64,000 bases of DNA, from positions 19,668,983 through 19,732,982 of the forward strand of contig OZ020245.1 in the NCBI GenBank assembly GCA_963971285.1, given 5' to 3'. The position numbers and the translations under genes were made by a program. The number at the start of each line of letters is the position of its first letter. Positions within the stretch are counted from its first letter, which is position 1. Of the stretch, positions 38,100-61,987 are shown in pieces. Source of the stretch: Astropecten irregularis. Its lineage: Eukaryota > Echinodermata > Asteroidea > Paxillosida > Astropectinidae. The notes beneath the pieces were generated by a model. It was not told the DNA's origin. It saw nothing but the letters and a program-made list of their open reading frames with translations, and did no database searches.

Positions 38100-38213
38100 G
38101 GCCCTTGATGACAGTTAAGCTAGATATTTAAATTAATTTCTAACATGGCTCTCATTTGAGATAGGCCTACTTCTTTTTTATGCCAAAAGTATATGTTTGC
38201 CTTTCATCTACAG

Positions 38214-38293
38214 GGAATGATGGACATGCATGGAAATGCTCACACATGATGGTAGTGATTTTATAGTACTAGTAAGTTTAATCCAACAACAGA
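38214..38293 (+). other. 5' UTR part of the first coding exon, with an upstream frame
   Basis: A pyrimidine-rich acceptor, TTTGCCTTTCATCTACAG, ends at 38213. The leader has an ATG at 38217 opening a ten-codon frame that closes with TGA at 38247-38249. A TAA at 38279-38281, in frame with the main ATG, shows that the receptor frame cannot extend upstream in this exon, unless the weak acceptor AACAACAG ending at 38292 is used. Confidence 0.55.
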
Positions 38294-39245
38294 ATGGAGG
38301 AGGACAGTGCTGGAACCATGCTAGACCAGGAAGAGCCACTCAAGCTATCCGACTCACTCGCAGCCGGTATGTGGACCGTTGCCTTGATGATAATCTTCTT
38401 CAACGTACTGTTGGTCATCATTGGCTGGCCACGGAAGAAGGAAAACAGCGTCAATGCTTTCTACCTGTACTACCTACTCCTGTGCAACCTCCTGACTGCC
38501 ATGTTTGTACTTCTTCATGCCTCCCTGGACAACAGCATCAAGGATGAGGATGGCACGGATGAGAAGTATCACTCCCTCTGCTCCTTCTGTGGCTACATCG
38601 GAATCGCCTCTTGCTTGCTGGCGCTGTCGACGATGCTCACTATGGCAACTAATCTCCTCCTCCATCTTCTGTTTCCAAGATGCTTCAAACAGGGAAAGAA
38701 TTATTTACCCAAGATGCGAGCGATTGCCTTCACGGAAGGTCTCTTCATCTTGGTAGTGGTCGTCGTTCCGTTTCTGCCTCTGGATGTCTTTGAAGAGGGC
38801 CAGACTGCCTCCCGCTTCACTCTCTGTCTTCCTATGCACCCACCTCAGACCACGATGTGGGAGGTCACCTTAGTGCTGTACATCGTGGAGTCTCTGGGTG
38901 TCTTCGTGCTCTTCCTCATGTCTGCAATGATGTTCTGTCATCTCAGCCGCCAGCAGAGCGTCCTGGAGTCGGCCATTCCAATGGAAGCACGCGTTCTACG
39001 GAAAAACTCGCTCCTGGTCAAGCGCCACTGCTGCTTGCTCCTGGGCACCGTCGTATGCTGGGTTCCACCTCTGTTAACACTGCTCAGTATGTTTGCTGGC
39101 GTGCAGGTCTCAGCCACAGTAATACAATGGATGTTTGGTGTGGTCAAGCCACTTGGAAGTGCGGCTGGCCCCTTCTTGTATCTGTTACGAGTGACCTGCA
39201 AGAACTACACAGTTTCATCATGTATTAAAGGAACGAGAAGTAAAG
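38294..39245 (+). CDS. Receptor-pseudokinase gene, exon 1 coding: class A (LGR-like) seven-transmembrane domain
   Basis: Encodes residues 1-317 plus one base of codon 318. Start: ATG 38294, with an in-frame TAA just upstream. Seven hydrophobic helices lie at about 22-44, 55-78, 96-126, 143-163, 188-215, 243-268 and 273-298. Class A hallmarks: N37 in TM1; C96/C99 and C178 for the extracellular disulphide; C255-W-V-P258 in TM6; LGSAAGPFLY 287-296 in place of LNxxxNPxxY in TM7. Loops and TM5-TM7 most resemble the LGR/relaxin-receptor branch (CLPM before TM5, VKP in TM7). D2.50 is M70, and there is no DRY/ERW at the end of TM3. The extracellular N-terminus is only about 21 residues and no signal peptide is seen. 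The exon ends at a consensus donor AAAG|GTGAGT. If unspliced, the frame would stop at 39274, giving a receptor-only form. Confidence 0.85.
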
Positions 39246-39290
39246 GTGAGTATATTATGCTTTATTACGCATAGTGTTTGGGATCAACCG

Positions 39291-39644
39291 TTAAAGGTAG
39301 TATCATACTTTGGTAAGAAACCCAAACAGAAATGTTCACAGATTTACAGGGTATAAAGATGATGCTGGTAGAAACATACCGTTGAAATATTTCAGCCTGA
39401 AATGCTGTATTTATCCAGAAATTTGTAAAACCAGTGACCAAAATCATTTTTGATCTTTTAAAGATCAAAATTAAAAGAGAAAAGACTTAAGAAATATTGT
39501 GGCCGTTTTTCACTGTTTTCTCAAAAAGTGGGCACCGTATGGGACTGACATTTTCACAGATGGCTGTTACTGTATCTTCCTTGATATTTTCGACCATGAT
39601 TCTGCATTTCTTTGACAAAAACCAAAGTATGATATTACCTTTAA
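39291..39644 (+). mobile_element. TTAA-MITE family A, copy 13
   Basis: TTAAAGGTAGTATCATAC to GATATTACCTTTAA, both ends intact. It starts only 45 bp after the intron 1 donor. Confidence 0.9.
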
Positions 39645-40505
39645 CTAAAGAATATGTTGCATCATAAAACAAAATATGAGAAAGACTTTGATGGCAGCAA
39701 CCTTTTAGAATCATTGGAATGCTGTATTTGGAGAACAAAAAAGCTTACATTTTGGTCAAAAAGTATTTTTAATGTTTTGTTTAACAAAAATGGAAACTTT
39801 GGTTTTATTTTTTCTCATGATCCAGACATCAGACTGAGCTCAAACCTTCACACATTTTTTTTTTCCTTTTTGTTGAATCAGACTCAAAGTGTGTACATGC
39901 TCACTGTTCTGTGACCTTTGCCAAGTATGTGTTATCCCTTCAACAAAAGAACATAATTTCATTATCATATCAAAATATGTAGATATTGTGTTCTCTTTTT
40001 TTTTGGAAACACTAACTTTTACTGCAAGTGAGTCGTGGAAGAACCCCCCCCCAAAAAAAAAAAAAAAAAAACCACCAAAAATAGAATGAATCCAAATACA
40101 TTTTATTGCAATTTTTATTTTTTGTATTTGTTGTTTTGGAGCTATGAAGTGTTTTGTAATATTCTGTGCACATATAAGCAATCAAGGCCCTTATGGAAAG
40201 TAAATCTTTCTTATACTGTATACCTTTATAGTTGCTATCATACAATGCATGTAGCATTCTGATTTTTAATGCATTTTGTTGTCATTGTTTTTGGTTCTCG
40301 TTATATTATTGGGATTCAAATCTCCTGTCTTCATCGCCCAGGATCGGACGAGGGTAGGAATATGTGCCGTTTTGGTTCACTTTAATATGCAATAGTGTGC
40401 CTGTGTCCCTGTGTGTTGAATGCACTGCACATCATAATATTATCCATAATATTGTGAAATGTGACAACCTGTACCTTTTAATTTTAACGTGTTTGATATC
40501 TTGTT
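39645..40505. other. Intronic AT-rich sequence
   Basis: Contains a C-run followed by a poly-A run near 40046-40072. No exon or complete repeat found. Confidence 0.35.
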
Positions 40506-41181
40506 TACGGAGCTCCACGAGTGCCAATGTTCCACTTAATATCCAGATATCCACAATTTATCTCGCCAAGTCGACTTTTGGAGTTGTAAAAGTCGTCTTG
40601 TCTCAATAATTATCTCAACATGATGACCTTTGCAAATTAGGCATGCCCTTCACCGACGTGGATGAGCACTGTATACTCAGTGCTTGTGAGAGCACGTGAA
40701 AAAAATCACATGATTGCTCAGGTGGGATTCGAACCCACGACCTCCTGCTTGCTAGTGCAGATGCCTTACCTGCTAGGCCACCGAGCTAGCTGGGGTCTGC
40801 AGGGTGAATCGAATCCAATATCACGGCGGGTACCGCAGTAAGATGACCTTTAGCGAAAACGAGAAGTCAACTTATCCTAATAATTTTCTGGCCAAGTCAA
40901 CAAAGTGAATCTAAAAAGTCATCTTATCCTGAGTTTAAGTCGTCTTTGCAAGGTAAACTATCAGGACAAGTCGACTTCCTTCTTTCAGATAGTCGTCTTG
41001 GCAAGATAAATTATTATTTTAATTATTAATGTCGACTTCTTAGTTTTTAAATTTTACTAAGTCATCTTTTACGGATAAATTATCTCGATAAGTTGCCCTT
41101 TAGGGCTTAAATGTGTCAACTTGGCGAGATAAATTATGTTTGTTATCTGGATAAGTTGAATGGCACTCGTGGAGCTCCGTA
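40506..41181. mobile_element. Foldback element with GGAGCTCCACGAGTGCC ends and internal repeat words, split by a SINE
   Basis: ACGGAGCTCCACGAGTGCCA at the left pairs with TGGCACTCGTGGAGCTCCGT at the right, extended by CCAGATA...ATTTATCTCG / CGAGATAAAT...TATCTGG. The interior alternates AAGTCGAC- and GATAAATTAT-like words in both orientations. A SINE interrupts it at 40632-40841. Confidence 0.85.
40632..40841 (-). mobile_element. tRNA-derived SINE, family S2, full-length, with target-site duplication
   Basis: Minus strand: A-box-like GGTGGCCTAGCAGGTAAGG and B box GGGTTCGAATCCC in a tRNA-like head, then a unique body CACAAGCACTGAGTATACAG and a tail ending in GAAGGGCATGCC. GATGACCTTT flanks it on both sides (40622-40631 and 40842-40851). 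The matching body and tail recur at 62520-62652. Confidence 0.85.
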
Positions 41182-42128
41182 CTTGTTTTCCCTGGCACCG
41201 TGAACTAATATTCCTTTGTTGTTGTTCTAGTGTTGTGCACAAACAAGTATTAGTAGTTGTTCTTGGAACTTCACTCTTTATATTTGTTTTGTTTTGTTTT
41301 TATAAGATACACCTCGGGTCAATGTAAAGTGAATGTTATCATTCATATGAACATAAAACTATATTGATTTTAGAACCAAAAACATTGATTTAATGATGTC
41401 TGTTTAAGTATTTTTACATTATCCCTGGGTTTGTCTCCTAAAAAAACCCAATATCAGTCAAATGTCTTAATCTCCCAGCATCTACACATGTATTCTTTCC
41501 TTTGTCCATGCGGAACAACTTTGATTACTGGTAGCAGGGCTGGAAATAAGGTTTTGTGAGGGCAAGGCCATTTTTCCATTGCAAGGGGCACTTCCATTGG
41601 AAAATCATTATAATGTCTAAAGAAACATTTGAAGGGGGCACCAAGGCCAAGAACCAGGGCAACGAAGGCCGTGGCCTCCGTGGCCTCCGTGGCCTCCGTT
41701 TATTTCCAAGTTTGAGGTAGTCACCTCTAATATCAGAGCTCACCCCAAGCCTGGAAAAATTAGCATTATCGACACTCTCAATGTCATCGCATATGTAAAA
41801 AATGACGCACAGGGTTAAATATTGATGAAGTGTTTGCATTTAAAATTGTGACACAATTGGAGTTGCTGCTGCAACTGCTGCTGCTACTGCTGTCATTGCT
41901 GTTGTGCTGGCAAAACTGCTGCAGGCAGAGCTGTATATATGCTGTTACTGCATGTGTGGACTAGAAGATGAATTTCTTTGTCAGTATTGCTGAACAAGCA
42001 ACAATTCCTGAATATACACCTTTAACATGGTTGAAACCCCTGTGGTATCGGCCTAAATGACAATTTTGCGGTCGCAAAATTAGCACCTCCTTCAACCGCA
42101 GAAATATCTAGGCAAGGGGGTTGGAGTG
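41182..42128. other. Intronic sequence with GGCCTCCGT and CTG repeats
   Basis: GTGGCCTCC is repeated three times near 41672-41698, and an interrupted CTG tract lies at about 41862-41935. Near 42064 is the palindrome TTTTGCGGTCGCAAAA-like GATTTGCGG form. No exon recognised. Confidence 0.45.
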
Positions 42129-42495
42129 TTAAAGGTAGCATCATACTTTGGTAGCATACTGAAACAGACATCTTCACAGATTTAACAATAACTTACAGGG
42201 TATAAAGATTGTGATGGTAGAAACATACTGTTAAAATCTTTCTGCTTGATGAATGGTGTATTTATCCAGAAAAGAGTAAAACAAGTGACCAAAATTGTTT
42301 TTGATCTTTTAAAGATCAAAAATAAAAGAGAAAAGACTTTAGAAATCATGTGGCCGTTTTTCACTGTTTTCTCAAAAAGTGGACACTGTATGGGACTGCA
42401 ATTTTCACAGATGACTGTTACTGTATCTTCCTTGATAGTTTTTCCCATGAATCTGTATTTCTTTGACAAAAACCAAAGTATGATATTACATTTAA
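42129..42495 (+). mobile_element. TTAA-MITE family A, copy 14
   Basis: TTAAAGGTAGCATCATAC to GATATTACATTTAA. Confidence 0.85.
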
Positions 42496-42992
42496 CTAGG
42501 ATGACTGTACAAGTGTGCATCGCTACAATTCCGCATACACACCACACCACATAATAACCACCACATAATAATGACTTTATTAATTTCATTACCGGTACTT
42601 TTCTTAGTAAGATTGGGTCTCCCTAGGATAATTAGTATTGAGTTGATGTGATTAAAAGAGCAAAAGACAAAACAAATCATCAAAGCGGCAAGCAAGCTCG
42701 CCATAATTAAGTATTAAAGCAAACTCTGTGTATTTTAATGAAGACTTAATGCAGAGCCATTAACCCCTAGACATGCTAGATCATGTAACCTTTAGGTTGG
42801 GACATAAAATGGTACGTAGCTGATAACATACTGCAGTGCATGCAGGTAATGACTACAGTCTTAATAGCCCTCTGCACTAATGATGTCACTTATAGACTTT
42901 GATACTTTAATGTATTGTCAGACACTATAATATACTCAAATATTGTCTCGTGTAAGCTACAAGTATATTTGGCACATAATAGGTACGTTCAC

Positions 42993-43064
42993 ACACACCA
43001 AAAAGCGCGACTATTTGGGTCGCGATTCAAATCGCGACCCAAATAGTCACGCTTTTTGGTGTGT
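42993..43064. repeat. 35-bp near-perfect hairpin
   Basis: The left arm 42993-43027 and right arm 43030-43064 are complementary except for one position, with a 2-base loop. Core words: ACCAAAAAGCG, GACTATTTGGGTCGCGATT and their complements. Further partial repeats (GTGTGACCCAAATCG) follow at about 43080, suggesting the middle of a foldback repeat. Confidence 0.9.
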
Positions 43065-43500
43065 CCACACAGGCAAAAAAGTGTGACCCAAATCGTACTG
43101 GTACGATTTCTTAATCAAACTGCGCATGCCCGATTCTAATGTGCAACGAACGATCAATACGTAGGATACGATGGGTTATCCATTGTAGCTCAAGCTACGA
43201 TCGATGATAGGGCTTCGCGAAATCAGTATTTTTTCAGTACCGGTATTTCGGAATGGTTTTTGTAAATGTCGAACTTGCAAATCAAATTAAACCAAATAAC
43301 AAAGTTGGCATGTTTGTTTCCCTAGTGATACCATATAGCACATAGATACTCATTTTCTTCAGCATAAGGAATCTTCATGGTAGGGTATTTTTATACAAAA
43401 CATTCTTTTTTTATTGCTTAATTTTGACTTACATTTTACTGCTGTTTGCTATTGTAACATTTCACATGGGGATATGGCTGGCAACCTGATTTTTGTCATT
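43065..43500. other. Intronic sequence, nothing recognised
   Basis: No feature beyond the hairpin remnants at its left edge. Confidence 0.3.
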
Positions 43501-43639
43501 GAAAAGTGAACAAAGAAAAATTTACTGCAACCTCCTGAATATCGTACATGCGCTCTACCAACTGAGCTGTCCAGTCCTATGTTGATGGTGTCCCCAATAG
43601 TCAATTATCTTTGTTCGTTTGGCAGTCAGAAGCCATGAA
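43501..43639 (-). mobile_element. tRNA-derived SINE, family S1
   Basis: Minus strand reads GCTTCTGACTGCC, then GACTGGACAGCTCAGTTGG with an A-box-like GCTCAGTTGGTAGAGCGC, then a decayed B-box part and a tail TTTTTCTTTGTTCACTTTTC. Same family as 57773-57940. Confidence 0.75.
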
Positions 43640-43974
43640 TCCATGCACACCAACCTGATTTCTTTTATTAGAAAACAGCATTTCAAGTTTTGTTGCCCTA
43701 TGTTGGTGTTTATATAAGCAGTCCCGATGAAATGATATAGGCCTAAGTGGAACGACCGTCCATTAGACCTAATTCGTCAATTGCCAGAGTCACCAAACTT
43801 CCACCAAACCGTCTCCCTGGCTGAGGCTGTATAATTACATCTAGAGTGACCCTTGATGAATAATTAAAAGCACATTAAAAACAAATTAATGCATTATGCT
43901 AAAATTGTATCCATAGGAATGTAGGCCTTAACTGTATTGGCCTACTCGTCATTTTCTAATTCCTTGTACAGCAG
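43640..43974. other. Intronic sequence
   Basis: Nothing recognised. Confidence 0.3.
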
Positions 43975-44082
43975 GGGCGGATCCGTGGGGGGGAGTACCC
44001 CCCTTTTCTTTCAGCAAAAAAAAAAAGAAAAGAAAAGAAAAAGAAAAGAAAAGAAAAAGAAAAGTGAAAGAAAGAGGGAAAA
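43975..44082. repeat. GC-rich relic followed by an AAAAG microsatellite
   Basis: GGGGCGGATCCGTGGGGGGG, then irregular AAAAG / AAAAAG units to about 44064. Confidence 0.7.
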
Positions 44083-45144
44083 TAACATCATATGGACTCA
44101 AAAAGAGGGGATGGGGAGACAAAATTAGCTAGCTTTGATCTCCCCGAAATGCATCCGTCGCTATTGAATTGTCGCATTTTATTCCCCCTTCCCCCCTTTG
44201 GAAAATCCTGGATCCGAAAAATTTTGGGTATTCACAAATTTTTATTTAGCCCCCAAAACACTTCATATTATTAAATTACAGCCACCCCACCTACAAAACA
44301 AGCATTTTTATCTCCCTGAAATTTCGGATTATGGGCATCATAGGCCCTATAGCATGAACTTCTGAACCAACGGAACTGTGTGATTTTGTGCAGCATGTTG
44401 TATCTTATGTACTTCATTGTGTGTTGATTTTTTTATGAGCCTACAAAAAGTGTATTAATTGTAGTAAAGGTATTTCAGTGTTTTGTGTTTATTCCCCCAA
44501 CCCCTCAAAAACACGCACTTGTGGTGTCTGTAACAATTATGTTTACGTCTATTGTGGATTTGATTGACTGTACACTATTTGTTTAAAGCACAGTAGGTTT
44601 GCAGTTGCACAGACCTGTACGTCATCAGTCTCCGTTCTTTTGTTGTTGCTCCCACTTAACTTTGTTGTAATTTGTTTTTATTCTAATTTCAAGACCTGTA
44701 CATTTATTTTCTTTATTACACATAATTATGGGTACTTTGGGCACTATGCAAATCATGCACCATCCAATTGGAAACTTGATCTAAATCCAGTTTAATCCCA
44801 TGAAATAACAAAATACATTGTAAATCTTTCAAACACTAATTTCAATTTGAATCTGCACAGAGGTTTCATATTTTCTTCTTATTTTCATTTCTCATATAAT
44901 TATGTGGCTTAAGATGTAAACATATAAAACATTCAAAATTGCATTGTTTCCATTTGTCAATGGATAATGCAACCCATTATGTATTAACAAAACACAATTT
45001 GTGAGAATCTTGGATTGTCTGGATATCAGATAAACTAATACCTGTCGACCTTTACATGACTAACAATCAAAGTAATTCATTTTCAGTCCTGAAATTTCAT
45101 GAGGGTCACACGATCTCATTACAGTGGTCAGCTGTGGCAGTCCT
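44083..45144. other. Intronic AT-rich sequence
   Basis: No exon with acceptable borders, no RNA gene and no clear repeat ends. Confidence 0.35.
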
Positions 45145-45332
45145 GGGGCCACTTTCATAGAGCTGCTAATTTAATCACCAAAATTTGCTTAAGCATGAAA
45201 AACCTTGGTAAATAAAGTCATTATGCCAGCCAAAACTCCATGGAAATATGGTTGATAATCCTGTTTGATCAAGGAAGATTTTTCATGCTTAAGCAAATTT
45301 TGTGTTTAAGCAGCTCTATGAATTTGGCCCCA
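45145..45332. mobile_element. MITE family H, TTAAGCAC subtype, copy 2
   Basis: GGGGCCACTTTCATAGAGC and GCTCTATGAATTTGGCCCC ends. The intact TTTGCTTAAGCATGAAAAACC inside is the kind of TTAA site that is filled by a family A MITE in the copy at 60201. Confidence 0.8.
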
Positions 45333-45492
45333 TGTCAATATGATATGTCCTCAACCTTGAAAATGTGGCCTGGCCCCTTGAGGAAATTGGAGTGCAGAAA
45401 AAGTCCAGAATAATTGCCAACTTCACACCAAACTCCTCAAGAAACAGGGAACAAATATGAACACTCCTCCTGTTATTCTTTTGTTTCCATAG

Positions 45493-45713
45493 TTGCCAAG
45501 ACAAGAGATGCGGTACAGATGCAGCTAGGCCAGCTGACCGGTGCCATCACGGTGCCGCAGAAAATGGACGCATACCGCGTGCCCAACAGTAACCACGTCG
45601 CATCGGTGGAGAGCATTTCTGCCTCTCAGCAGAAGAATGGGAAGCGTTCCAATGCTCCGTCGGTGGTCCGCTGGGTGGAGACGGTTCCAATCATTGGACG
45701 TCACATGAACATG
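45493..45713 (+). CDS. Receptor-pseudokinase gene, exon 2 coding: cytoplasmic linker
   Basis: Acceptor TTGTTTCCATAG ends at 45492 and donor ATG|GTATGA starts at 45714. The exon enters in phase 1: the single G from exon 1 plus TT gives Val318. It leaves in phase 0, coding for residues 318-391. The sequence is polar with SISASQQKNGKRSN near the middle. The last part, VVRWVETVPIIGRHMNM, leads directly into the kinase-like glycine loop (G386). Frame continuity with the receptor exon supports one transcript, although the two exons are 6.2 kb apart. No known domain in the first 50 residues. Confidence 0.7.
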
Positions 45714-45772
45714 GTATGAGGAAGCATTCTGCTAATTGGGCACACCTGTCATAAATTGTGCACAGTGTTCAC

Positions 45773-46130
45773 TTAAAGGTAGTACTTTGGTAAGAAACCA
45801 AAACAGAAAGTTTCACAGATTTACGTATAACTTACAGGGTATGAAGATGGAGGTGGTAGAAACATACCATTAAAATGTTTCCGCTTGAAATGCTGTATTT
45901 ATCCAGAAATTAGTCAAACAATGACTGAAAATCTTTTCGATTTTTTAAAAGATAAAAAATAAAAGAGAAAAGACTTAAGAAATGCTGTGGCCATTTTTCA
46001 TGATTTTCTCAAAAAGTGGGCACCGGACGTATCTGGAATTTTCACAGATGACTGTGACTGTATCTTCCTTGATATTTTTGCACATGAATTTTGTTCTTTG
46101 ACAAAAACCAAAGTATGATACTACCTTTAA
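45773..46130 (+). mobile_element. TTAA-MITE family A, copy 15
   Basis: TTAAAGGTAGTACTTTGG (6 bp shorter at the left end than consensus) to GATACTACCTTTAA. Confidence 0.85.
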
Positions 46131-46147
46131 TATGATGATACTAGATG

Positions 46148-46588
46148 TACAGCGTGTCCCCCAAAAAACACAACACTATGTCGGGAACCAGTATGTTAAA
46201 GTTTAACTTTTTATCACTTCAAGATTCAGCTATATGATACAACCATGTCTTGGCTATCACCATGTAGAATTTAGGCAAAATCGGGCTGAAATTGGCAAAA
46301 ATATGACCAATTGAAAGAGTACTCTTTAAAAATAAATTTGCAGTATCCCAGAATAAGTGGTCAGTACACACATAATGTGTATTGAAAGAAAGATGAAAAC
46401 TTGGGTTTTGAGGTTGGGTGATTCAGTCTTATTTTTTTCTCTCAATTTCAGTAAAATTTTGCTCAAATTCTATATGGTGATAGCCAAGACATGGTTGTAT
46501 CACATATCTGAATCTTGAAGTGATAAACAGTTTAATTTTCATATAATAGTTCTCGACACAATGTGTTTTTTGGGGACACCCTGTATAT
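46148..46588. mobile_element. Mariner-like MITE family G, copy 4
   Basis: ACAGCGTGTCCCCCAAAAAA at the left, TTTTTTGGGGACACCCTGTA at the right, and the facing CATGTCTTGGCTATCACC phrases inside. The best-preserved member here. Confidence 0.9.
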
Positions 46589-47646
46589 ACAACAATTCAC
46601 TGAGAGTAAACTATGGCTACCAAAATTTGCCTTACAAATTAATCTGAAATCACCATATTTTAAGCATTTGAAAACAATTAGTGCAATGTGTTCACATTGC
46701 CTTTGGACAGGAATAAAATATTCCCATAGATTCTGTTTATAGATTCTGACTTACATTTGGACAGAACTGTGTTAGCTGGTTCTAATACTCACTTTGCAGA
46801 ACTTGTCTCAGAAAGCATTCAGGTTTAAGAATTGTCAACGGTTTTGAGTCTTTGACCGATTGTCAAAATTTGCCCTCCATCCACAATTGTATTTCCTTAA
46901 AATGCCCTGTCAAGATTGCAAGCCTCCGTAGAGTAAAAGGAAGGTATATACAGCCATCTACTTACAACTGCATGGCTTTCAAGTTGATCATTGCAAGCAT
47001 TTTCAAATGCGAAGCTGAAACCACCGTTAACCCTAAAGGGAAGATTTCTCCCTAGATACCTATCCCTTCTACTCAACCCAACCGGTCCCACATCGAAATA
47101 TGGTCATGTCATAAACAGCGCCTTGCAGAGCTTCCTATATGCCCATCTAAAGGTATCCGGTGTCATCCCTGCGTGTGCCGGCAAAGACGTAACAGAGATT
47201 TCCTTTCACTACTGAACAAGTCTTTGTAAACCTAAGTGCTCAGCGTGGCTCAAGGCAATGTTGTGATTGCAGGTAGAGTATGGAGGAGTGCGCGCTCAGC
47301 AGAGGGAAGAAAACGGTGCGCAAATAAAAATCAGCCGTGTTCTCTGCCAAGCAAGAGAGACGGAGTTCCGTATTATACTCAGGGAGAGTTTATGATTATG
47401 TCCACCAATCGTCTAGTCTGTGAAAACATTCCAAATACTGAGCAAACATTGGAAACTGTTGGGACCGTTGTAATATTATACCTGTATCAACATGGCGCTG
47501 TTGGGGGTAATACTCATTTTGACAGATCAGCAGCACAATTGAACAAGTGTCTGGGAAACTGAGGGGGAAAGAAAGAAGATTTGTGGAGATTCCAAAAGAC
47601 TGTTCTGCTTATTGAAAGTAATGATGTAAACTTTGTATGATTATTA
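46589..47646. other. Intronic sequence, nothing recognised
   Basis: Frames of up to about 108 codons occur (47236-47562) but have no splice support or known domain. Confidence 0.35.
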
Positions 47647-47997
47647 TTAAAAGGTAGTATCATACTTTGGTACGAAACCAACACAGAAATGTTCACAGAT
47701 TTACATATAACTTTCAGGGTATGAAGATGGTGGTGGTAGAAACATACCGTTAAAATTTTTCTGCCTGAAATGGTCTATTTACCGTATCCAAAAATTTGTA
47801 TAAAAAAAAATTGACCGAAAATCTTTTTGGTCTTTTAAAAGAGAAAATACTGTGGCTGTTCTTCACTGTTTTCTCAAAAAGTGGGATATGGGACTGAAAT
47901 GTTTACACATGACCATTACTGTATCTGTCTTGATACTGATTTTTGCACATGAATCTGTATTTCTTTGATAAAAACCAAAGTATGATGCTACCTTTAA
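47647..47997 (+). mobile_element. TTAA-MITE family A, copy 16
   Basis: TTAAAAGGTAGTATCATAC at the left (one extra A) and GATGCTACCTTTAA at the right. Confidence 0.85.
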
Positions 47998-48013
47998 GCA
48001 TAATGTGTATAAT

Positions 48014-48340
48014 TGAAAGGGCATGTACTACATTGGTAACAAACCAAAACAGAAATGTTCACAGATTTATGTATAACTTACAGGGTATAAGACCATAATG
48101 GTAGAAATGTACTGCAAAACACCAAAAACATTTTTTATTGTAGCAAGATAAAAAATGAGACAGCTATTCCCCAACACAATTTGGAGTAACAATTGCAACA
48201 GGTTTTCATTGTTTTCTACTGTTTTCAATGATCAATTGAGCTGAAAATTTCACAAATTTTGTTTTATTCCATAACAAATCAAATTTTGAGCAGCCTGTAA
48301 ATGCTCTGTCACCTTTACCAATGTTGTACATGCCCTTTAA
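48014..48340. mobile_element. TTAA-type MITE, family D
   Basis: TTGAAAGGGCATGTACTACA at the left pairs with TGTTGTACATGCCCTTTAA at the right. The subterminal TTGGTAAC/TTTACCAA is as in families B and E. Its right TTAA (48337-48340) is also the left TTAA of the next element. Confidence 0.8.
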
Positions 48341-48449
48341 AGGTAATATCATACTTTTCACAGATTACTGTTATTCTATCTTCCTTGATAATTTTTGCCC
48401 ATGAATCTGCATTTCTTTGACAAAAACCAAAGTATGATATTACCTTTTA
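48337..48449 (+). mobile_element. TTAA-MITE family A, copy 17, deletion derivative
   Basis: Only about 113 bp: the left TTAAAGGTAATATCATACTT joins directly to TTCACAGATTACTGTT and the right end. Internal 250 bp are missing. Abuts family D on a shared TTAA. Confidence 0.85.
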
Positions 48450-48544
48450 CAATAAAAAGAAATTTAAAAGTTGTCTCAATTTTTTAGCATCATCCATCAG
48501 ATTACTTTTCACACCTTGCTTTTTTCTTTCTTAATACTGTATAG

Positions 48545-48789
48545 AACTTTGGCATAGTGGAGTGGCAGACAAAGAATGGTTCGCCACGTCGCGGACTCCT
48601 GAAGGTCTTCGTCAAGCCCCACTCCCGCGAGTGGCGCAACGAGTCCAGCATCCTGTACCGTCTGAGCAGACTGGAGCACCATCGTAACATCGTGGAGTAC
48701 CTGTGGCACTCCAAGAGCTCTCACACCAAGCTGGAGCGGGAACAGTCAGAGCCTGCCCATCAAGACCAGGAGAAGCCTGTCATTCAGAG
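48545..48789 (+). CDS. Receptor-pseudokinase gene, exon 3 coding: kinase-like N-lobe
   Basis: Acceptor ends TATAG at 48544; donor AG|GTAAGA at 48790. Entered in phase 0 and left in phase 2, it codes residues 392-472. N392-F-G-I-V396 completes a glycine-loop pattern begun by G386 in exon 2. The beta-3 lysine is K411 (LLKVF) or K415 (VFVK). E424 in WRNESSIL is the candidate alpha-C glutamate. LEHHRNIVEYL (434-444) is the typical alpha-C/beta-4 block (HxNIV). A polar loop rich in E, Q and S (447-468) precedes the beta-5 start KPVIQ. The spacing from K411 to HxNIV is close to that of tyrosine-kinase-like domains; that from K to E is slightly short. GC-richer than the surrounding intron. Confidence 0.75.
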
Positions 48790-48850
48790 GTAAGATGAGT
48801 TGGACATTTGAGCTGGCAGCGGGGAAAGGAGAGCTGATGAGAGTTGACCA

Positions 48851-49534
48851 GGGGCCAATTTCATAGAGCTGCTTAGCACACAAATTCGCTAAGCATGACA
48901 TTTCTGTCTTTTAGTAAAAGCAGGACTAACAACAAGCTGATGAGAGTTGACCAAGGGCCAATTTCATAGAGCTGCTTAGCACATAAATTCGCTAAGCATG
49001 ACATTTCTGTCTTTTTAAAAGCAGGATTAACAACAAGCTGATGAGAGTTGACCAAGGGCCAATTTCATAGAGCTGCTTAACACGCAAAATCGCTAAGCAT
49101 GACATTTTTGTCTTTTAGTAAAAGCAGGATTAACAACAAGCTGATGAGAGTTGACCAGGGGCCAATTTCATAGAGCTGCTTAGCACACAAATTCGCTAAG
49201 CATGACATTTCTGTCTTATAGTAAAAGCAGGATTAACAACCAAATTCCTGTGTGTTGTGTATTACTTGCAATAGCGTTCCGCACTAATGACGTCACACCA
49301 TGCATGCACGCGCATACATACCCCCACTCACCACACGTTTGCACGGCCAGTTGCAATGTTTGTCTGAGGTTCGGTGCTATTTTTAGTGCAAGTTTGCAGT
49401 GCTATTGGTCTTTGGCTGTTGTTCACTGACCATGAATATCAAATGGAATTTTCAATGGCGGTTTCTTTTATTGGGCAAGCTATTTTTGTGCTAAGCAATT
49501 TTTTTGTGCTAAGCATCTCAATGAAATTTCCCCC
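48851..49534. mobile_element. MITE family H, copy 5, with its left end tandemly expanded
   Basis: A unit of about 97 bp (GGGCCAATTTCATAGAGCTG, CTAAGCATGACATTT, AACAAGCTGATGAGAGTTGA) occurs four times at about 48851-49235. After it the rest of a normal H copy follows to the right end at 49534. An extra 120 bp (about 49262-49400) interrupts the usual interior. Confidence 0.85.
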
Positions 49535-54705: not shown

Positions 54706-55027
54706 GTAATATCATACTTTGGTTTTTGTCAAAGAAATACATATTCATGAGCAAAAATATCAAGGAAGATACAGTAACAGTCATCTGTGAATATTTCAGT
54801 CCCATACGGTGCCGACTTTTTTTAGAAAACAGTGAAAAACGCCTGCAGTATTTTAACAATCTTTTCAACTTAATTTATTGTCTTTCTGGATAAATACAGC
54901 ATTTCAGGCAGAACAAATTTAAACGGTATGTTTCTACCATCATCATCTTTATATCCTGTAAGTTATAGGTAAATCTGTGTGGAAATTTCGGTTTCAGTAT
55001 GCTACCAAAGTATGATGCTACCTTTAA
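54706..55027 (-). mobile_element. TTAA-MITE family A, copy 19
   Basis: Left terminus eroded (TGTAATATCATACTTTGG); right end GATGCTACCTTTAA. Confidence 0.8.
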
Positions 55028-55435
55028 TAATATAGTCAGACAGAATTAAGAATGCAAGCATGTCTGAGCTTTAAGCTAATGCGTCTGTATGTTTGCCCTG
55101 TGTAAATGTCATGAAGGCAAACAATCAATTTATCCAGGAAGCAGAATGGAGCTGCTAACGCGCCGGCCAATATATGCAAGCGAGAGAGACCCCTTGTGTC
55201 AATTTGCAATACCCAGGCGGTGTCAGAAAAAAAAGGAAGGGCACGATAATCGAGGATGCAAGACTTTATTTCTGGCCAAATTGGAATGATCACCGAGAGG
55301 CCGCTAATTCGTGAAATAGATGTTAGGCAAGAGGGAATCAAACCAAAAAATCAACAGAAGAGAATGAGAATATAAAACTTACTGTAGTTTTATGAACTGG
55401 GGCTGATTGTAATAAAATGGTCTTAAATGATGGGC
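55028..55435. other. Intronic sequence, nothing recognised
   Basis: No feature supported. Confidence 0.3.
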
Positions 55436-55814
55436 TTAAAGGTAACATCATACTTTTATTTTTATGAAAGAAATACAGATTCATGGGCAAAAATACCAAG
55501 ACAGATACAGTAACAGTCATCTGTGAACATTTCAGTCCCATAGGGTGGCCACTTTTTGAGAAAACAGTGAAAAACAGCCACAGTATTTCTTAAGTCTTTT
55601 CTCTTTTATTTTTGATCCTTTAAAAGATGAAAATGATTTTCAGTCATTGTTTTACTAATTTCTGGATAAATAGGGCCTACACCATTTCAGGCGGAATGAT
55701 TTTAACGGTAGGGCATATGTTTCTACCAACACTATCTTCATACCCTGTAAGTTATAGGTAAATCTGTGAACATTTCTGTTTTGATTTCTTACCAAAGTAT
55801 AATACTACCTTTAA
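55436..55814 (-). mobile_element. TTAA-MITE family A, copy 20
   Basis: TTAAAGGTAACATCATAC to ATACTACCTTTAA. Confidence 0.85.
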
Positions 55815-55847
55815 GGATGCAGACCAAAGCTGACTTTCTCTCTTAGC

Positions 55848-56142
55848 CGGGCCCAATTTCATGGAATCCGTTACGGCCTATTTTTGTGCTTACAAACACA
55901 GCTACGCGTGAAATCTATTTCATGGAATCCGTAAGCAGACCTTTCGGTTAGCGAAGAATTTCTAGGGTAACCGTGATAATTTTCTGCTAACGCGCTGCCG
56001 TATGCATTTTGCACAAATTCCTTGCTTACCGTTACCAAAAAGGAAACTCTTCCGCGAAATACGCTAACCGTAACCAAAAAAAGTCTGCTACCGTAAGCGA
56101 AGAATTTTTGCTAATGGTAACGGATTCCATGAAATTGGGCCC
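55848..56142. mobile_element. MITE with GGGCCCAATTTCATGGAATC ends
   Basis: The left end GCCCAATTTCATGGAATCCG pairs with CGGATTCCATGAAATTGGGC on the right. The first 80 bp contain a second ATTTCATGGAATCCGTAAGC, and GCTAACCGTAACC/GGTTAGCG words face each other inside. The terminal GGGCCCAATTTCATGGA resembles family H ends. Confidence 0.85.
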
Positions 56143-56814
56143 AGGTCTTGAGTAAGACAACAAAGTTAGCCCATTGCAATAAGCCAGTCTTTCATAGCCC
56201 CTTGTGGAGTTATTGATTCACCCATGGTTACTGACAAATTTCCAGTCTGTGATGTGTGTAACATGTACAGTTTGAACAACTTGTGCACATAATCATGTTG
56301 CTGGATGGCTTGAATCACAATGAAAAATAAAAATGGAAAAACTCAATGAAACCCTCATCGGTATAACTCATTACCATCATATTAACCACAGGATTCAGCC
56401 TGCCCTCAGAAACCCCTCTGTCAGCCCAAGGCTATTCTGTTTAAATCTTCAACAACTAAGTAGAAATTGCTATTTTGGCAACAAAAGTTATTACAACATG
56501 CAATCAAGTAAGGGAAATTCCAAACAAAGACAGTTTTAAGCCTGCTCCAAGCAGGCTAACTCTGTTAGGACTGGCTAAGCAGCAAGACTGCTTCATTGCA
56601 ATGGTCTAACTTTTAAACCAACTAGGTCTAAGTCATTTAAGACCGGCTAGAGCTATAGACAGCTTTAAGACTGCTTTTTGCAATCCACCCCGATCAAATT
56701 CGAAACACAGCTTCGGGGGAATGATTTGGGGGGAGGACTTGTCATCAGTGCATGAAAATAGTGACGACATACGCCTTGATACATTTGTGCATTGCCTGTT
56801 ATAAGGTGGTAAAG
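56143..56814. other. Intronic sequence, nothing recognised
   Basis: No exon or repeat boundaries supported. Confidence 0.3.
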
Positions 56815-56990
56815 GTTGGCATAGCGACATCATAGTGGTTCTCTCCTCGCTAAATGTCACCTCTGTGGTCCGGATCTCGAATCACATTGGGGGCACGGTT
56901 CTATGAGGACTGGGTGTTGCAGTCCTTTTTTTGATCAATTCCTCCCACCTCCAAAACTGCCATTTTTCTTTCTTAAGTCTCCGTTTTGTA
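56815..56990 (+). mobile_element. SINE-like element, family S3, diverged copy
   Basis: GTGGTTCTCTCCTCGC, CACCTCTGTGGTCCGGATC, TTCCTCCCACCTCCAAAACTG match the copy at 51325. The B box is decayed. Confidence 0.6.
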
Positions 56991-57283
56991 AACACCAATA
57001 GTATGATCACTTTATTATTTATTACTATGGAATAGCTTTTCACTGGTGCCCTGTAGGGTACTGTAGATATCCACAAAGCAGTGTGAATCTACCTTTATAT
57101 ACCGGCGGTACTTCACCGGTTCACACCAGGTGGTGGGGCACATAACATACAGCAGCGCATCTGTGCCAATTTTAACAACTTACCCATGTGCCCCAAGTGT
57201 CATTTTATTGTCTGGTGTTCAGATCTTATGAGTCATGTACTTGAGATAGATACAATATTTCACAGGATTTTTACAAGCGGGAA
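56991..57283. other. Intronic sequence
   Basis: Nothing recognised. Confidence 0.3.
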
Positions 57284-57480
57284 CATTTGCTTAATAAGCA
57301 TGAGAAGTCTTCCTTGATCAAACAGGATAACCAACCAAATTTGACATTTATTGCTTTTGACTTGTAATCTGGCATTGTTTGCTGAGCATAACATTCACTA
57401 AGGATTTTCTTTTTCATTAATACCCAGGATTTTGGTGCTTAAGCAAACTTGGTGCTTAAGTACCTCTCAATTGGCCCCAG
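57284..57480. mobile_element. MITE family H, TTAAGCAC subtype, copy 3 (left end lost)
   Basis: Contains GTCTTCCTTGATCAAACAGG and ends TGCTTAAGTACCTCTCAATT followed by GGCCCC. Confidence 0.65.
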
Positions 57481-57772
57481 GTTATAAAAGGGGATATTTT
57501 CAATAGCCAAATCTTTGTAAACCGTGGAGCCAAGTTTAGGTAAGCTAGGTCATTCTATATTTTCTTTTGAGATTCTCTTTTGTGAGGGGGGGGTGTCGTA
57601 TCCAAAATGGAGACTAAAAACAATAATTCAGTCAGTTTTCATTGTGGTTATATTTGATGATTTTATTTAAAAAGTTTTATCCTCTTTGAGTGATCCCCTA
57701 TGTACCGTTCCCAGGTTGCAGCATTGCTGTGCGTATCCTTTTAATGATCCTTGGGGTAGGCCGGTATGTGGG
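57481..57772. other. Intronic sequence
   Basis: Nothing recognised. Confidence 0.3.
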
Positions 57773-57940
57773 TGGTTTCATGGCTTCTGACTGCCAAATG
57801 AATAAAGATGATTGACTATTATGGACACCACCAACGTAGGGCTGGATGGGTCAGTTGGTAAAGCGCCTGTACGATAATCAGGAGGTCGCCAGTTCGAATC
57901 CCACTCCAATCAATTTTTCTTTGTTCACTTTTCAAAATGG
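57773..57940 (+). mobile_element. tRNA-derived SINE, family S1, best copy
   Basis: Leader CATGGCTTCTGACTGCC, then a tRNA-like part with A box TCAGTTGGTAAAGCGC at 57851 and B box AGTTCGAATCC at 57891, then TTTTTCTTTGTTCACTTTTC. It lacks a coherent cloverleaf, so I do not call a tRNA gene. Confidence 0.8.
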
Positions 57941-58229
57941 AGTCACAGTTTGCTTTGGGATGCATCCATGTGCCACTGAATGTGAAGGCATCTTGTTTGG
58001 AGATAGGGTACCTCTTCTCTTGAGAACATTTTCCCTCTGGCTTACTGCTGCTGCATATTATGAATACTGATACATGAACCCATCCATCATTTTGTTGATG
58101 ATCAGCCCATAGATCAGAGAGGCCGTCTTCACAACTGCACTGCTACCTGAACTAGCATGGGCTACTGAACAAAATACAGTACCTGAAAACCTATGGCCCT
58201 CAGAAATCTCCCTTGAGGACACCACTGAC

Positions 58230-58736
58230 CAGTGTTGGAGTAGAGTCCTCAGATCCGAGTACAGAGTACTCGGAGTACATTCAAGGTCGAGTACAGGGCC
58301 GAGTCCGAGTACCAAAGTCTGAGTTTACGTCCGAGTACATCAGTACCAACACACAGTGCAAAAACAAAATGCAGTTTGTTTCACAAAGATGCTTATAATT
58401 GGATGTTGATCATGTTGTGCCACTCTTCTCAGAAATTAATATTTTTCAAACCTTGCAAATGACACTGTGCTGCTTACTCTGTTTGATACTAAACTGCTGA
58501 TCTTCATACTCCCATTGTATAATTTATCGGAAATTGACAACATTATCAGCCATGAAATTGTAATGAAAATGAAATTTTCACTGAATGGTCATTAAGTACT
58601 CCCAAAATTCAAGCACATGGAATTGAGTACAGGCACATTTATTTTTGAGTACTTTTTATCGAGTACGGGCCAAGTACATTTTATTTCCTAGTACTTTGAA
58701 TCGAGTACGGGCCGAGTATTTGTCTGTACTACACTG
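58230..58736. mobile_element. GAGTAC-rich hAT-like MITE
   Basis: Begins CAGTGTTGGAGTAGAGTCC and ends GTCTGTACTACACTG, giving CAGTGT/ACACTG terminal repeats. The GAGTAC word (or complement) recurs more than ten times near the two ends. I could not find an 8-bp target duplication. Confidence 0.55.
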
Positions 58737-59144
58737 ACTCTGCAGTGGGCTAAGTCTGGATAGTAAAGGATTAGTGACTGAAAGACTGGCACACACCGTG
58801 GCTCGCACCTTTTGCCATTGACCTAAAGGCACCCCAGCAACTCCATGAAAGTTGATACGGCCCCAGGGCAAAGCCAGAGGATTATATCCTCCTTTGATGT
58901 GATATATTGAACCTTTGAAGACTTTGATCTCATGTGATTTTTTTTCCACAAGGTGGGAAACTGATTTTAAGTGATAGATATATTGTTCTCTTTCACACCC
59001 ATATTGTTGGAAAGTCAAATGAGATTTGGCACGCAAACCTACAAATCCATTGACTGTTATAGTGCCTGAGTCATAAATTTCAGAAATTTATGATAATTGC
59101 TGTTCATTTTTTTGCAGCCAATATCTCATTTGAGAAAGTTAATG
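58737..59144. other. Intronic sequence, nothing recognised
   Basis: No feature supported. Confidence 0.3.
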
Positions 59145-59390
59145 TTATGTGGATTGGTTTGCGGAAACACCATGTAAGAATCATTCGTACTTTCGCACTT
59201 CTATTTCGTTCGCACTTCTTGTAAGGTCTCAACATTTCGACTAGCCCGCTCTAGTCATCATCAGGAGATCCTGTCCTCATCAGGAGGACTAGAGCAAGTC
59301 ACTCGAAACAAACGAAATAGAAGTGCAAAAGTACGAAAGATTCTTGCATGGTGTTTCCGCAAACCAATCTGCATACTAATTAACACCATG
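59145..59390. mobile_element. Foldback element with long arms
   Basis: Left arm GATTGGTTTGCGGAAACACC...TTTCGCACTTCTATTTCGTT; right arm AACGAAATAGAAGTGCAAAA...GGTGTTTCCGCAAACCAATC. Between them GACTAG...CTCTAGTCATCATCAGG and CATCAGGAGGACTAGAGC also face each other. The arms are about 60-70 nt. Confidence 0.85.
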
Positions 59391-60200
59391 CAAAGCCTCA
59401 AATCTTTCTTAAAGTTAATGTCACAATAAAAACATGAATTTTATGACTTCATCAACTATGCACCGATCCAGTAGCAACGTAGCCCACAATAGCAACGTCC
59501 AAGCAACGACGCACATGCGCACACACACAACGTGTCACTATCGCCCACATATGCGAAGCGTTGCACACTCTCAACCGCTGAAAGTAGCTCTCTTCGTTGG
59601 ATTTTGGTTTTGCAAAAGGCCAAAAATGTACATTTCCTCTCAGCCAGGGCATCGAGAGTCAGAATTACAATGAATAATATAAACACCGCTTGAATATGGT
59701 TAACAATAAAACTCGGATTTGTAAAAGAATTTGCCTTGTACTTACGAAACAAAAGTAAACTCAACAAAAACTGCATAGTAAAGAATACAAAATGTAAAAC
59801 ATTTTGTCGGGACAAAATGGCGGCAATTTGTTGGACCTTAAATAACGCGTTACACAACAATCCTCTTTCATTCTTTTAGCTAACTGAAATGTTACAAGGT
59901 TTTTTGGCAGTACGGTTTTGCTGCGTAGGTAAATTTCCCTTGTGCATGAACACAGTCTCCACATCATGAAAAGGCACTAAGGAAGTATTGCATTGGTTAT
60001 TATGATTGTTTGAGCAATAATAGGCATAAATCTCCAAGGGGTTTTCTGCCTGTTCCAAGTTCTGAATAAGTTTGCTTGTGAAACAAGTCAAACTAAACAT
60101 TTATGTGGTAGCAGTTAAGGTCAGATTTATGGTTCTGTTTTTGTACTGTGCAAGCACTTGGCCATCACAAGGATTGCTGTCACCACCTCAAGACAGCAGT
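59391..60200. other. Intronic sequence, nothing recognised
   Basis: Open frames up to 134 codons on the minus strand have no recognisable product. Confidence 0.3.
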
Positions 60201-60788
60201 GCCCAATTTCATACAGCTACTAATAAGCACCAAAATTTGCTTAAAGGTAGTATCATACTTTGGTAAGAAACCAAAACAGAAATCTTCACAGATGTATGTG
60301 TAACTTTATACAGGGTATGAAGATGGTGGTGGTAGAAACATACCGTTAAAATATTTCCGCCTGAAATGGTGTATTTATCCAGAAATAAGTAAAACAACGA
60401 CCGAAAATCTTTTTGATCTTTGAAGAGATCAAAAATAAAGGACTGAAGAAATATTGTGGCTGTTTTTCACTGTTTTCTGAAAAAGTGGGGTACCGTATGG
60501 GACTGAAATTTTCACAGATGACTGTTAATGTATCTGTCTTGATATTTTTGCCCATGAATTTGAATTTCGTTGATAAAAACCAAAGTATGATATTACCTAG
60601 GCACCAAAAACTTTGGTAAATTAAATCAGTATGCCAGCCCAAACTCCTTGTGAATTATATGCTTAGCACAAACAAAGACAAAAGCAGTCAACATCACATG
60701 AAAATGTTTGGCAATCCTGTTTGATCAAGGAAGACTTTTCATGCTTAAGCAAATTTTGTGCTTAAGCAGCTCTATGAAATTAGCTTGG
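60201..60788. mobile_element. MITE family H, TTAAGCAC subtype, copy 4, interrupted
   Basis: Left part GCCCAATTTCATACAGC to AAAATTTGCTTAA (60201-60244) and right part from AGGCACCAAAAACTTTGG to GCTCTATGAAATTAGC. The gap is exactly a family A MITE inserted in the element's TTAAGCAC site. Confidence 0.85.
60241..60598 (+). mobile_element. TTAA-MITE family A, copy 21
   Basis: TTAAAGGTAGTATCATAC at the left. The right end reads GATATTACCT then AGGCACC, so the right TTAA has decayed. Confidence 0.85.
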
Positions 60789-61301
60789 GGCCCCAACCTG
60801 TTGTGTAGGCCACCGAATTCCCCTCCCAACGAAAATGCAAATAGGCCTATATATTTTTTATATCCCCCGCAAATCATGTCAACTCGTACAAATATTTGGT
60901 CGTATCCTAGATTAATATTTATTGTACATTTGTACTTCTGAGCCTTCTGGTGAGAATTAATGAATGTAATATTTGGAACAGACAGTTTATATTTACTAAA
61001 CAGCTGCACAGGTGAATAGCTGTCGGAGCTTAGCACTGTAATGACGTCATTCTAAATATCCAGATGTCAGATAATTGTTACTGAATTTGCAATGCATAAT
61101 TAGGCTATATTGTGAATTTGATAAAAAAAAATTCTGAGAAAGTGGGTACTTGATTGATTTTATAGTTTTGAACTTCTATTTTTGGAATGAATATAGCACT
61201 TTTGATGTATTGTTTCAGGAAATTGATATGATACAGCTGTGCAGGGTATTAAATTAGCAACACGGTAACAGAAAAATTAACAGTTAAAATATAATTGCTG
61301 G
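60789..61301. other. Intronic sequence, nothing recognised
   Basis: No feature supported. Confidence 0.3.
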
Positions 61302-61620
61302 TTCAAAGGTACTATCATACTCTGGTTATGGTAGCATACCGAATATACCTATAGGCTATAAGTAACATGGTATAAAGATGGTGATGGTAGAAATATGGTT
61401 CAAGTTTTTCTGCCTGAAACATGTGAAATGCTGTATTTATCAAGAAAAGAGTTTGTTGAAAAGATTTTTTTACTAAAAAATACCCTGGGCGTTTTACACT
61501 GTTTTCTCAAAAAGTGGGACTGGAATTTTCATAGACGACTGTTGCTCTATCTTTCTTGATATTTTTACTTTATGAACCTGCATTTCTCCGACAAAAACCA
61601 AAGTATGATATTACTTTTAA
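61302..61620 (+). mobile_element. TTAA-MITE family A, copy 22
   Basis: TTCAAAGGTACTATCATACT at the left (TTAA mutated to TTCA) and GATATTACTTTTAA at the right. Interior shortened. Confidence 0.8.
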
Positions 61621-61794
61621 GCAGAATGTATATTGTTATATCTCCCCAAAAATGGTTTGTAAAGTTAATTTTAGCTCCTCGGAATTAGATGGAAATCATG
61701 GAATGAATATTTGGTTTATAGCGGGACTTTTAGCACAACATGCATGTTTGTCAGAAGGTTATTCTATAATTATAACTACTTTCATTCTCGGCAG

Positions 61795-61987
61795 GTTTAT
61801 TTGCACGGCCTATTATCAGCACGGCACCCTGCGGGACTTCCTGCACAATCACCCACGGACCATCCAAGAGAGTCACGTCCACGCCATAGCCACCCAGGTC
61901 TCGGCCGGCATGTCCTACCTCCACGCCATGAGCATCATTCACGGCCTCCTAGAAACCACCAGCGTGTTGATTGGCGGCCATGTCGAG
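61795..61987 (+). CDS. Receptor-pseudokinase gene, exon 4 coding: hinge to catalytic loop of the kinase-like domain
   Basis: Acceptor TTCATTCTCGGCAG ends at 61794. Entered in phase 2 (AG plus G makes Arg473), and left in phase 0 at GAG|GTAGGT (an alternative donor, GTAATT, is 4 bp on). Residues 473-537. FICTAYYQHGTLRDFL (474-489) matches the beta-5/hinge/alpha-D signature of tyrosine-kinase-like domains. VSAGMSYLHAMSIIH (508-522) matches alpha-E. The catalytic loop is H522-G-L-L-E-T-T-S-V-L in place of HRDLKxxNVL: R to G, catalytic D to L524, K to E526, and the Mg-binding N to S529. Together these changes predict no phosphotransfer. Similar HG.L loops occur in receptor guanylate cyclase kinase-homology domains and in JAK JH2 domains. 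The DFG segment and C-lobe must lie downstream, beyond the window. Confidence 0.75.

Follow-up and report, generated by a model that had tools for sequence, protein, structure and literature searches.

A conserved sea-star gene joining a predicted LGR-like seven-transmembrane region to a probable pseudokinase

We have analysed a stretch of 64,000 nucleotides from the sea star Astropecten irregularis (GCA_963971285.1, contig OZ020245.1, positions 19,668,983 to 19,732,982 of the forward strand; hereafter the window), in which one gene encodes a predicted seven-transmembrane (7TM) region, resembling those of G-protein-coupled receptors (GPCRs), followed by a kinase-like domain. That this fusion gene is real is hardly in doubt. 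It is best regarded as one conserved gene, because three other sea-star proteins match its product from the 7TM region to the last residue. The 7TM part is closest, by its matches, to the relaxin receptor and LGR family (RXFP/LGR), and the kinase-like domain is probably a catalytically dead pseudokinase.

Gene model and sea-star orthologues

An earlier note on this DNA had described four exons with their borders, end phases of 1, 0 and 2, the split codons Val318 and Arg473, and a stop at 39274 reached when the frame of exon 1 is continued into intron 1. Re-reading the exons recovered every one of these, the stop included. The borders of the four exons are AG/GT, with exon 1 starting at its own ATG; the end phases of exons 1-4 are 1, 0, 2 and 0, and the joined frame stays open over 537 residues. 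Scored with a simple matrix, the donors of exons 1-4 reached 8.1, 1.5, 6.1 and 5.5 and the acceptors of exons 2-4 reached 5.3, 2.7 and 4.4, the donor of exon 2 being the weakest splice element. The best of the 16 AG sites listed between 38190 and 38364 was the acceptor at 38214 (score 5.9), and the open reading frame (ORF) of coding exon 1 opens downstream of an in-frame TAA (Table 1).

The rest of the gene was sought with an exon finder based on codon usage and splice sites, which scanned the + strand including 110 kb downstream of the window. The training set of its codon table consisted of kinase and receptor ORFs (some misframed) together with exons 1 and 6, exons 2-5 having been left out. 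From 39.3 to 134 kb on the + strand it returned, at threshold, exons 2, 3, 4, 5 and 6 alone (opening exon 4 at 61820 rather than 61795, with the frame unchanged), and exon 7 at a lower threshold. The full model has seven exons, 1386 amino acids and a length of 67.7 kb, with the stop at 105984, 42 kb beyond the window, and six of six junctions are phase-compatible. Introns 1-4 measure 6.2, 2.8, 13.0 and 38.9 kb.

A protein search with the 1386-residue product gave three sea-star proteins among a capped set of 8000 candidates scored, namely Patiria miniata LOC119741457 (1359 aa, 76% identity), a protein of Asterias amurensis (1328 aa, 72%) and Acanthaster planci LOC110979617 isoform X2 (1324 aa, 69%), each match covering 98% of query residues 1-660. 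All three align from the 7TM part through a shared C-terminal end, CLTEVAL, and the "isoform X2" naming of two of them suggests a transcript-supported prediction. The homologue check proposed in the earlier note, a search with the 537-residue window product, found nothing at E <= 0.001 among 8000 candidates scored, because a query of this length admits proteins to about 940 residues and the orthologues have 1324-1359; it was the 1386-residue product that retrieved proteins with the same domain order. When Patiria residues 388-680 (the pseudokinase region) were used as query, the same three appeared at E <= 0.1 among 2014 candidates. These protein searches gave no relatives outside sea stars, and none of the choanoflagellate, sponge or oomycete fusion families was among the matches of either, an absence that is weak evidence, as the word filter misses distant relatives. 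The claim of a single gene and product in an animal host, with the 7TM region first and the kinase fold on the predicted cytosolic side, is borne out.

The database entries of the orthologues read "uncharacterized protein" and carry Pfam labels for the kinase only. Because of this, and because the 7TM part falls below the Pfam cut-off, a domain-based survey would list the gene as a lone kinase. A literature search, with subscription journals and preprints outside its scope, found no mention of LOC119741457 or LOC110979617 and no other report of the sea-star fusion by title or abstract start.

The two parts of the protein

The Pfam model PK_Tyr_Ser-Thr matches the 537-residue window product at 8.7e-11 and the cytosolic part, with exons 2 and 7 both omitted, at 1.1e-11. 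Against solved structures, a profile of the kinase part found Fyn first (5.7e-7), then Fgr, LIMK2, Src, TYK2 and JAK2. The nearest solved chains are those of the Src family, LIMK and JAK/TYK2, and such matches justify no group assignment closer than tyrosine kinase or tyrosine kinase-like (TK/TKL) type; an NCBIfam scan of the kinase part gave weak matches to bacterial models only. Motifs were placed by alignment with six of eight kinase loci of the same genome (two were dropped, their catalytic loop having been missed by the motif filter) and also by HMMER alignments to Fyn, TYK2 and LIMK2. Lys411 aligns with the beta-3 Lys of all six kinases and Asp609 stands at the alpha-F Asp column. The HRD motif reads HGL, with His522 followed by Gly523-Leu524 at Arg-Asp, and Ser529 occupies the column of the catalytic-loop Asn. 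No alignment has an Asp at the DFG site, where the best fit is NFS, and no APE motif was seen in the kinase alignments. The residues named here are invariant in all four sea stars, H522-G523-L524, S529 and A546-N547-F548-S549 included.

We conclude from these residues that the domain is probably a catalytically dead pseudokinase of TK/TKL type. The earlier note had offered two possibilities, a receptor with its own kinase effector or one with a kinase-fold scaffold. With HRD turned into HGL, the catalytic-loop Asn into Ser, and neither a DFG Asp nor an APE, the effector is unlikely (in all four species the Asp of HRD, the Asn of the catalytic loop and the Asp of DFG are absent), and the scaffold was the better half of the proposal. 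The domain had also been described as lacking no piece; this is correct up to the catalytic loop, but the remainder lies beyond the window and is split by an insert.

This insert of ca. 670 residues (633-1298, 16.8% Ser), probably disordered, divides the C-lobe and carries nine invariant runs of 8-16 residues each. Two of them contain YFDM and DSGISS, which we take to fit the PI3K-SH2 and beta-TrCP-degron consensus, respectively, and regard as candidates. Mean pairwise identity among the four sea stars is 33.7% in the N-terminus, 71.3% in the 7TM part, 63.5% in the linker of ca. 70 residues that separates it from the pseudokinase, 85.5% in the N-lobe, 92.3% in residues 481-555, 37.3% in the activation loop, 87.0% in alpha-F, 55.0% in the insert and 92.5% in residues 1299-1386. 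With 85-92% identity against 71%, the core of the pseudokinase has changed less than the 7TM part, so that this core, dead though it looks, is the more tightly constrained of the two.

The 7TM part matched RXFP1 among solved structures at 4.5e-10, over 275 residues that include transmembrane helix (TM) 7, followed by LGR4 (ca. 0.007) and one unrelated chain (1.8); RXFP1 and LGR4 made up nine of the ten solved sequences matched. A four-species profile gave the same order more weakly (RXFP1 1.1e-7, LGR4 0.13, an unrelated short match 0.17). Pfam 7tm_1 stayed below its cut-off of 30.5 bits both on the 537-residue product (2.9e-5, 24.1 bits) and on the 7TM part (1.3e-5, 25.3 bits; three of the four species match at E <= 1), and at E <= 0.1 it matched a single one of the three full-length orthologues. 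Within the genome itself the best 7TM relatives are LGR-like, e.g., L020 (E 3.6e-18, 26% identity), a locus that matches RXFP1 at 1.2e-48. By these comparisons the 7TM part is closest to the RXFP/LGR family and probably of relaxin-receptor/LGR ancestry. The hydropathy peaks listed cover TM1-TM6, TM7 being without one. With hand-set segment ends, Lys plus Arg number 3, 5, 5 and 6 in intracellular loops 1-3 and the tail and 1, 2, 1 and 0 in the N-terminus and extracellular loops 1-3, charges that fit a topology with the N-terminus outside and the C-terminus inside.

In a search of the same genome, 60 candidates were scored and 53 matches listed, four of which are the fusion gene itself; among the other 49 only one, on C21, touches the kinase part (E 0.23). 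The expanded LGR-like set may have been the source of the 7TM part of the fusion. As for its distribution, 32 of these 49 matches listed lie on C30 and four on C19, and eight loci that were translated (within L020-L035, from C30, C19 and others) read as LGR-like 7TM regions.

The switch residues of the receptor (in GPCR position numbering as we take it to apply) were compared by aligning the four sea-star proteins with five of these own-genome relatives. Cys96, Trp256 (6.48), Pro258 (6.50) and Tyr296 (7.53) are kept in all four sea stars. All four have, however, Asn65 for Asp2.50, Asn120 for Asp3.49, Leu or Ile121 for Arg3.50 and Gly292 for Asn7.49, and Trp4.50 is replaced by Gly or Ala. The DRY site consequently reads Asn-Leu/Ile-Leu/Phe and the NPxxY site Gly-Pro-x-x-Tyr (in Acanthaster its Pro is Ser), so that one of the five class A switches D2.50, D/ERY, W4.50, W6.48-x-P6.50 and NPxxY is intact, W6.48-x-P6.50. 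The five relatives have Asp2.50 and Asp3.49 throughout, Arg3.50 in three (Ser in L025 and L026) and Asn7.49 in four, L022 deviating at 7.49 and 7.53. Cys96, invariant, aligns with a Cys of all five relatives; Cys178, also invariant, faces a Cys of RXFP1 in the structure-match alignment, but not a Cys of the relatives. Taken together, the two match the disulfide that class A receptors at the cell surface commonly have. The N-terminus is short in all four sequences, no exon for a leucine-rich repeat (LRR) or LDLa ectodomain was recognised by eye among 10 upstream exon candidates on the + strand, and the hinge cysteines and LRR/LDLa ectodomain that mark RXFP/LGR receptors were not found. The former description of a complete class A GPCR can thus be kept as to kinship, the nearest relatives being of class A (RXFP/LGR), but not as to completeness, with D2.50, DRY, W4.50 and N7.49 changed and 7tm_1 below its cut-off.

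Possible modes of action

We think it somewhat probable, judging from residues and their conservation, that the protein acts as a membrane-anchored pseudokinase scaffold whose docking is gated by the conformation of the 7TM part. In this scheme a 7TM region of LGR/relaxin-receptor ancestry, devoid of ectodomain, would hold the pseudokinase under the membrane. The protein would not phosphorylate, the pseudokinase serving as an allosteric docking module, and the C-lobe together with the conserved islands of the insert would gather a partner kinase, adaptor or E3, with YFDM and DSGISS as candidate sites. A putative ligand or lipid would change the 7TM conformation and so gate docking, whether in place of G-protein coupling or in addition to it, a logic that may be likened to the direct binding of PKA-C by Smoothened. 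More tentatively, and with some reserve, these genes could represent a bilaterian class of 7TM-pseudokinase receptors, so far from sea stars only, with an LGR/relaxin-type 7TM region that may have given up ordinary G-protein switching and, gated by a ligand or lipid, have turned into the membrane end of a pseudokinase scaffold.

Several observations weigh against this interpretation. Structure confirms neither fold, since neither of the two AlphaFold models can be relied on: mean pLDDT (the predicted local distance difference test score) was 41.0 for the 7TM part (four sequences; ten helices, seven of them at the expected places) and 33.5 for the tail piece of Asterias (three sequences). The order of helices and strands in the models broadly fits a 7TM region plus helix 8 and a split kinase fold, at a confidence too low to count. 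In the pseudokinase Lys411 is kept, and weak activity persists in some pseudokinases with degenerate motifs. The placement of the DFG site varies as well, with MAFFT putting it at I545-A546-N547, and the LIMK2 alignment and the six-kinase profile placing its Asp at N547 and its Phe at F548. The alignments left the alpha-C Glu unplaced, Glu424 being a candidate whose column is Glu in one of the six kinases. As for the receptor, it retains W6.48, P6.50 and Tyr7.53 and has basic inner loops, features with which it might still couple to G proteins. Finally, YFDM-type motifs arose in 256 of 2000 shuffled inserts and DSGISS-type motifs in 120 of 2000; shuffled inserts yielding them this often, what supports the two sites is their invariance alone.

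The main rival, which we consider unlikely though worth keeping in mind, is an LGR-derived receptor that still signals mainly through G proteins or arrestin and whose pseudokinase tail only tunes trafficking, stability or desensitisation. The 275-residue alignment to RXFP1 and its profile counterpart would be expected of such a receptor, as would the retained Trp, Pro and Tyr and the basic inner loops; it is harder to reconcile with the replacement in all four species of Asp2.50, Asp3.49, Arg3.50 and Asn7.49, mostly kept in the five relatives, and with a pseudokinase core more conserved than the receptor. Decidedly less probable is a 7TM scaffold that would answer to no diffusible ligand, reside for example in an organelle or cilium, and serve to anchor the pseudokinase in the membrane. 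The invariant Cys96 and Cys178, which fit the disulfide of a class A surface receptor, speak against it (for Cys178 the alignment of the relatives lends no support), even if the short N-terminus, the lack of a visible LRR/LDLa exon among the upstream candidates and the altered class A switches are what one would predict. A catalytically active receptor kinase, an effector of the GPCR-TKL kind, is very improbable: the Pfam match of 1.1e-11 and the position of Lys411 are outweighed by the loss in all four species of the catalytic Asp, the catalytic-loop Asn and the DFG Asp, by the lack of a visible APE and by the ca. 670 residues that split the C-lobe. That two adjacent genes were misjoined, one for a 7TM protein that stops at 39274 and another for the kinase-like part, is largely refuted and scarcely credible, since the read-through stop and the four long introns are set against six phase-compatible junctions in succession and three full-length sea-star proteins in the database that show the same join. 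Spanning the junction of exons 1 and 2 as they do, these three protein models also speak against the refuting case of the earlier note, in which no transcript would join 39245 to 45493.

As to what the fusion does, the loss of the catalytic residues suggests a role that is not enzymatic. Conservation of the fusion in a tractable group (e.g., embryos of Patiria miniata) makes the function of a 7TM-kinase-fold fusion directly testable.

Genomic surroundings and comparison with known systems

The gene, on C8 of this 475.7 Mb genome, lies among the features collected in Table 1. Dispersed repeats, noted by eye as aaaggtagtatcatactttggt-like and gggccaatttcatagagctgcttagca-like copies, occur in and around its introns (37800-39700, 45200-49100 and 61400-64000). 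The three related ORFs that share the start SLCTAFEELTV gave no Pfam match at E <= 0.1 and could be a local gene family or a mobile element; the frame 6711-7550, within the repetitive stretch, had no Pfam match either. Elsewhere in the assembly, L042 lies on C131, probably a bacterial contig, and has a cox1-like frame that stays open and contains no TGA, and L044 (C25), a cox1 stretch with seven TGA, probably represents mitochondrial DNA copied into the nucleus. The mitochondrial cox1 of the genome can be read through with the echinoderm code, AAA then giving Asn at a site where Asn is the common residue; together with the orthologues this makes a sea star the most likely host.

Table 1. Features of the fusion gene and its surroundings, in window coordinates (negative positions and those above 64,000 lie past its ends).
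Feature	Position	Strand	Content
Putative 5' untranslated region end	38214..38293	+	top-scoring acceptor before the ATG at 38214; in-frame TAA 38279-38281
Coding exon 1	38294..39245	+	short acidic N-terminus and whole RXFP/LGR-like 7TM part, residues 1-317
Coding exon 2	45493..45713	+	linker and pseudokinase start, residues 318-391
Coding exon 3	48545..48789	+	pseudokinase N-lobe: beta-3 Lys411, HHRNIV, candidate alpha-C Glu424; residues 392-473
Coding exon 4	61795..61987	+	hinge, alpha-D, alpha-E, degenerate catalytic loop HGLLETTS; residues 473-537
Coding exon 5	100869-101036	+	past window; ANFS at DFG site; exon finder
Coding exon 6	102525-104804	+	past window; alpha-F and insert; exon finder
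Coding exon 7	105883-105984	+	past window; alpha-H/I, TAA stop; exon finder at lower threshold
Repetitive stretch	6711-7939		long frames open on both strands
E3-ligase-like gene	11165-12205	+	single-exon ORF; RING finger above Pfam cut-off, sub-threshold Sina and TRAF-type zinc fingers
Related long ORF (494-573 codons)	19927-21411	+	common start SLCTAFEELTV
Related long ORF (494-573 codons)	27321-29042	-	common start SLCTAFEELTV
Related long ORF (494-573 codons)	30590-32272	+	common start SLCTAFEELTV
Upstream neighbour on C8	-7921..-8117	-	presumably an exon of Goosecoid-type homeobox look
Downstream neighbours on C8	133193-136254; 167301-167474	-; +	presumably BTBD9-like and COG2-like genes

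Fusions of 7TM regions with protein kinases have been reported from oomycetes, amoebozoans, choanoflagellates and sponges (eLife 107467, PMC12716839; consulted parts of PMC5784254 and PMC6033456). Among animals the surveyed literature reports them only from sponges (eLife 107467, PMC12716839), and to the knowledge of the authors of eLife 107467 none has been functionally characterised. The sea-star gene shares with all of these a coding join that is continuous in the gene models; its residues do not indicate the catalytic accessory domain. In the consulted passages of PMC6033456 and of PMC8286064, which deals with ambulacrarian LGRs, the sea-star fusion is not described. The choanoflagellate GPCR-TKL/K and GPCR-TK and the sponge GPCR-TK have, as here, a 7TM region followed by a C-terminal kinase fold of TK/TKL type (eLife 107467, PMC12716839). 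However, the 7TM regions of acanthoecid GPCR-TKL/K cluster with no other GPCRs and those of GPCR-TK form no unified family, whereas that of the sea stars is LGR/RXFP-like, and the kinase parts of the choanoflagellate and sponge fusions are described as kinase domains (PMC12716839), in contrast to the lost motifs found here in a bilaterian host. The GPCR-bigrams and GPCR-TKL of oomycetes and amoebozoans likewise combine a GPCR-like N-terminus with a TKL domain, but in the consulted parts of the sources they are regarded as catalytic, and in P. infestans roughly half of them have a DEP domain (PMC5784254, PMC6033456); the sea-star protein lacks the catalytic residues.

Taken separately, the two parts resemble better known proteins. 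The 7TM sequence is like that of RXFP1, LGR4 and the LGR-like loci of the same genome, from which the fusion differs in that no LRR/LDLa ectodomain or hinge cysteines were seen, in the changes at D2.50, DRY and N7.49, and in the added pseudokinase tail. A degenerate catalytic loop in a TK/TKL frame is shared with the pseudokinases JAK JH2 and KSR (TYK2, JAK2 and KSR were among the solved chains matched). Neither has the C-lobe insert of ca. 670 residues or the 7TM fusion, and the likeness consists of sequence matches, orthology not being claimed. Smoothened and PKA-C offer a functional analogy, a noncanonical GPCR in direct contact with a kinase fold, although Smoothened is of class F and binds the kinase in trans, unfused, and no relatedness is claimed (consulted part of PMC13186710). 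What is new with respect to the reported fusions is, within the surveyed literature, the host group, together with the receptor lineage and a kinase that looks dead and whose C-lobe is split.

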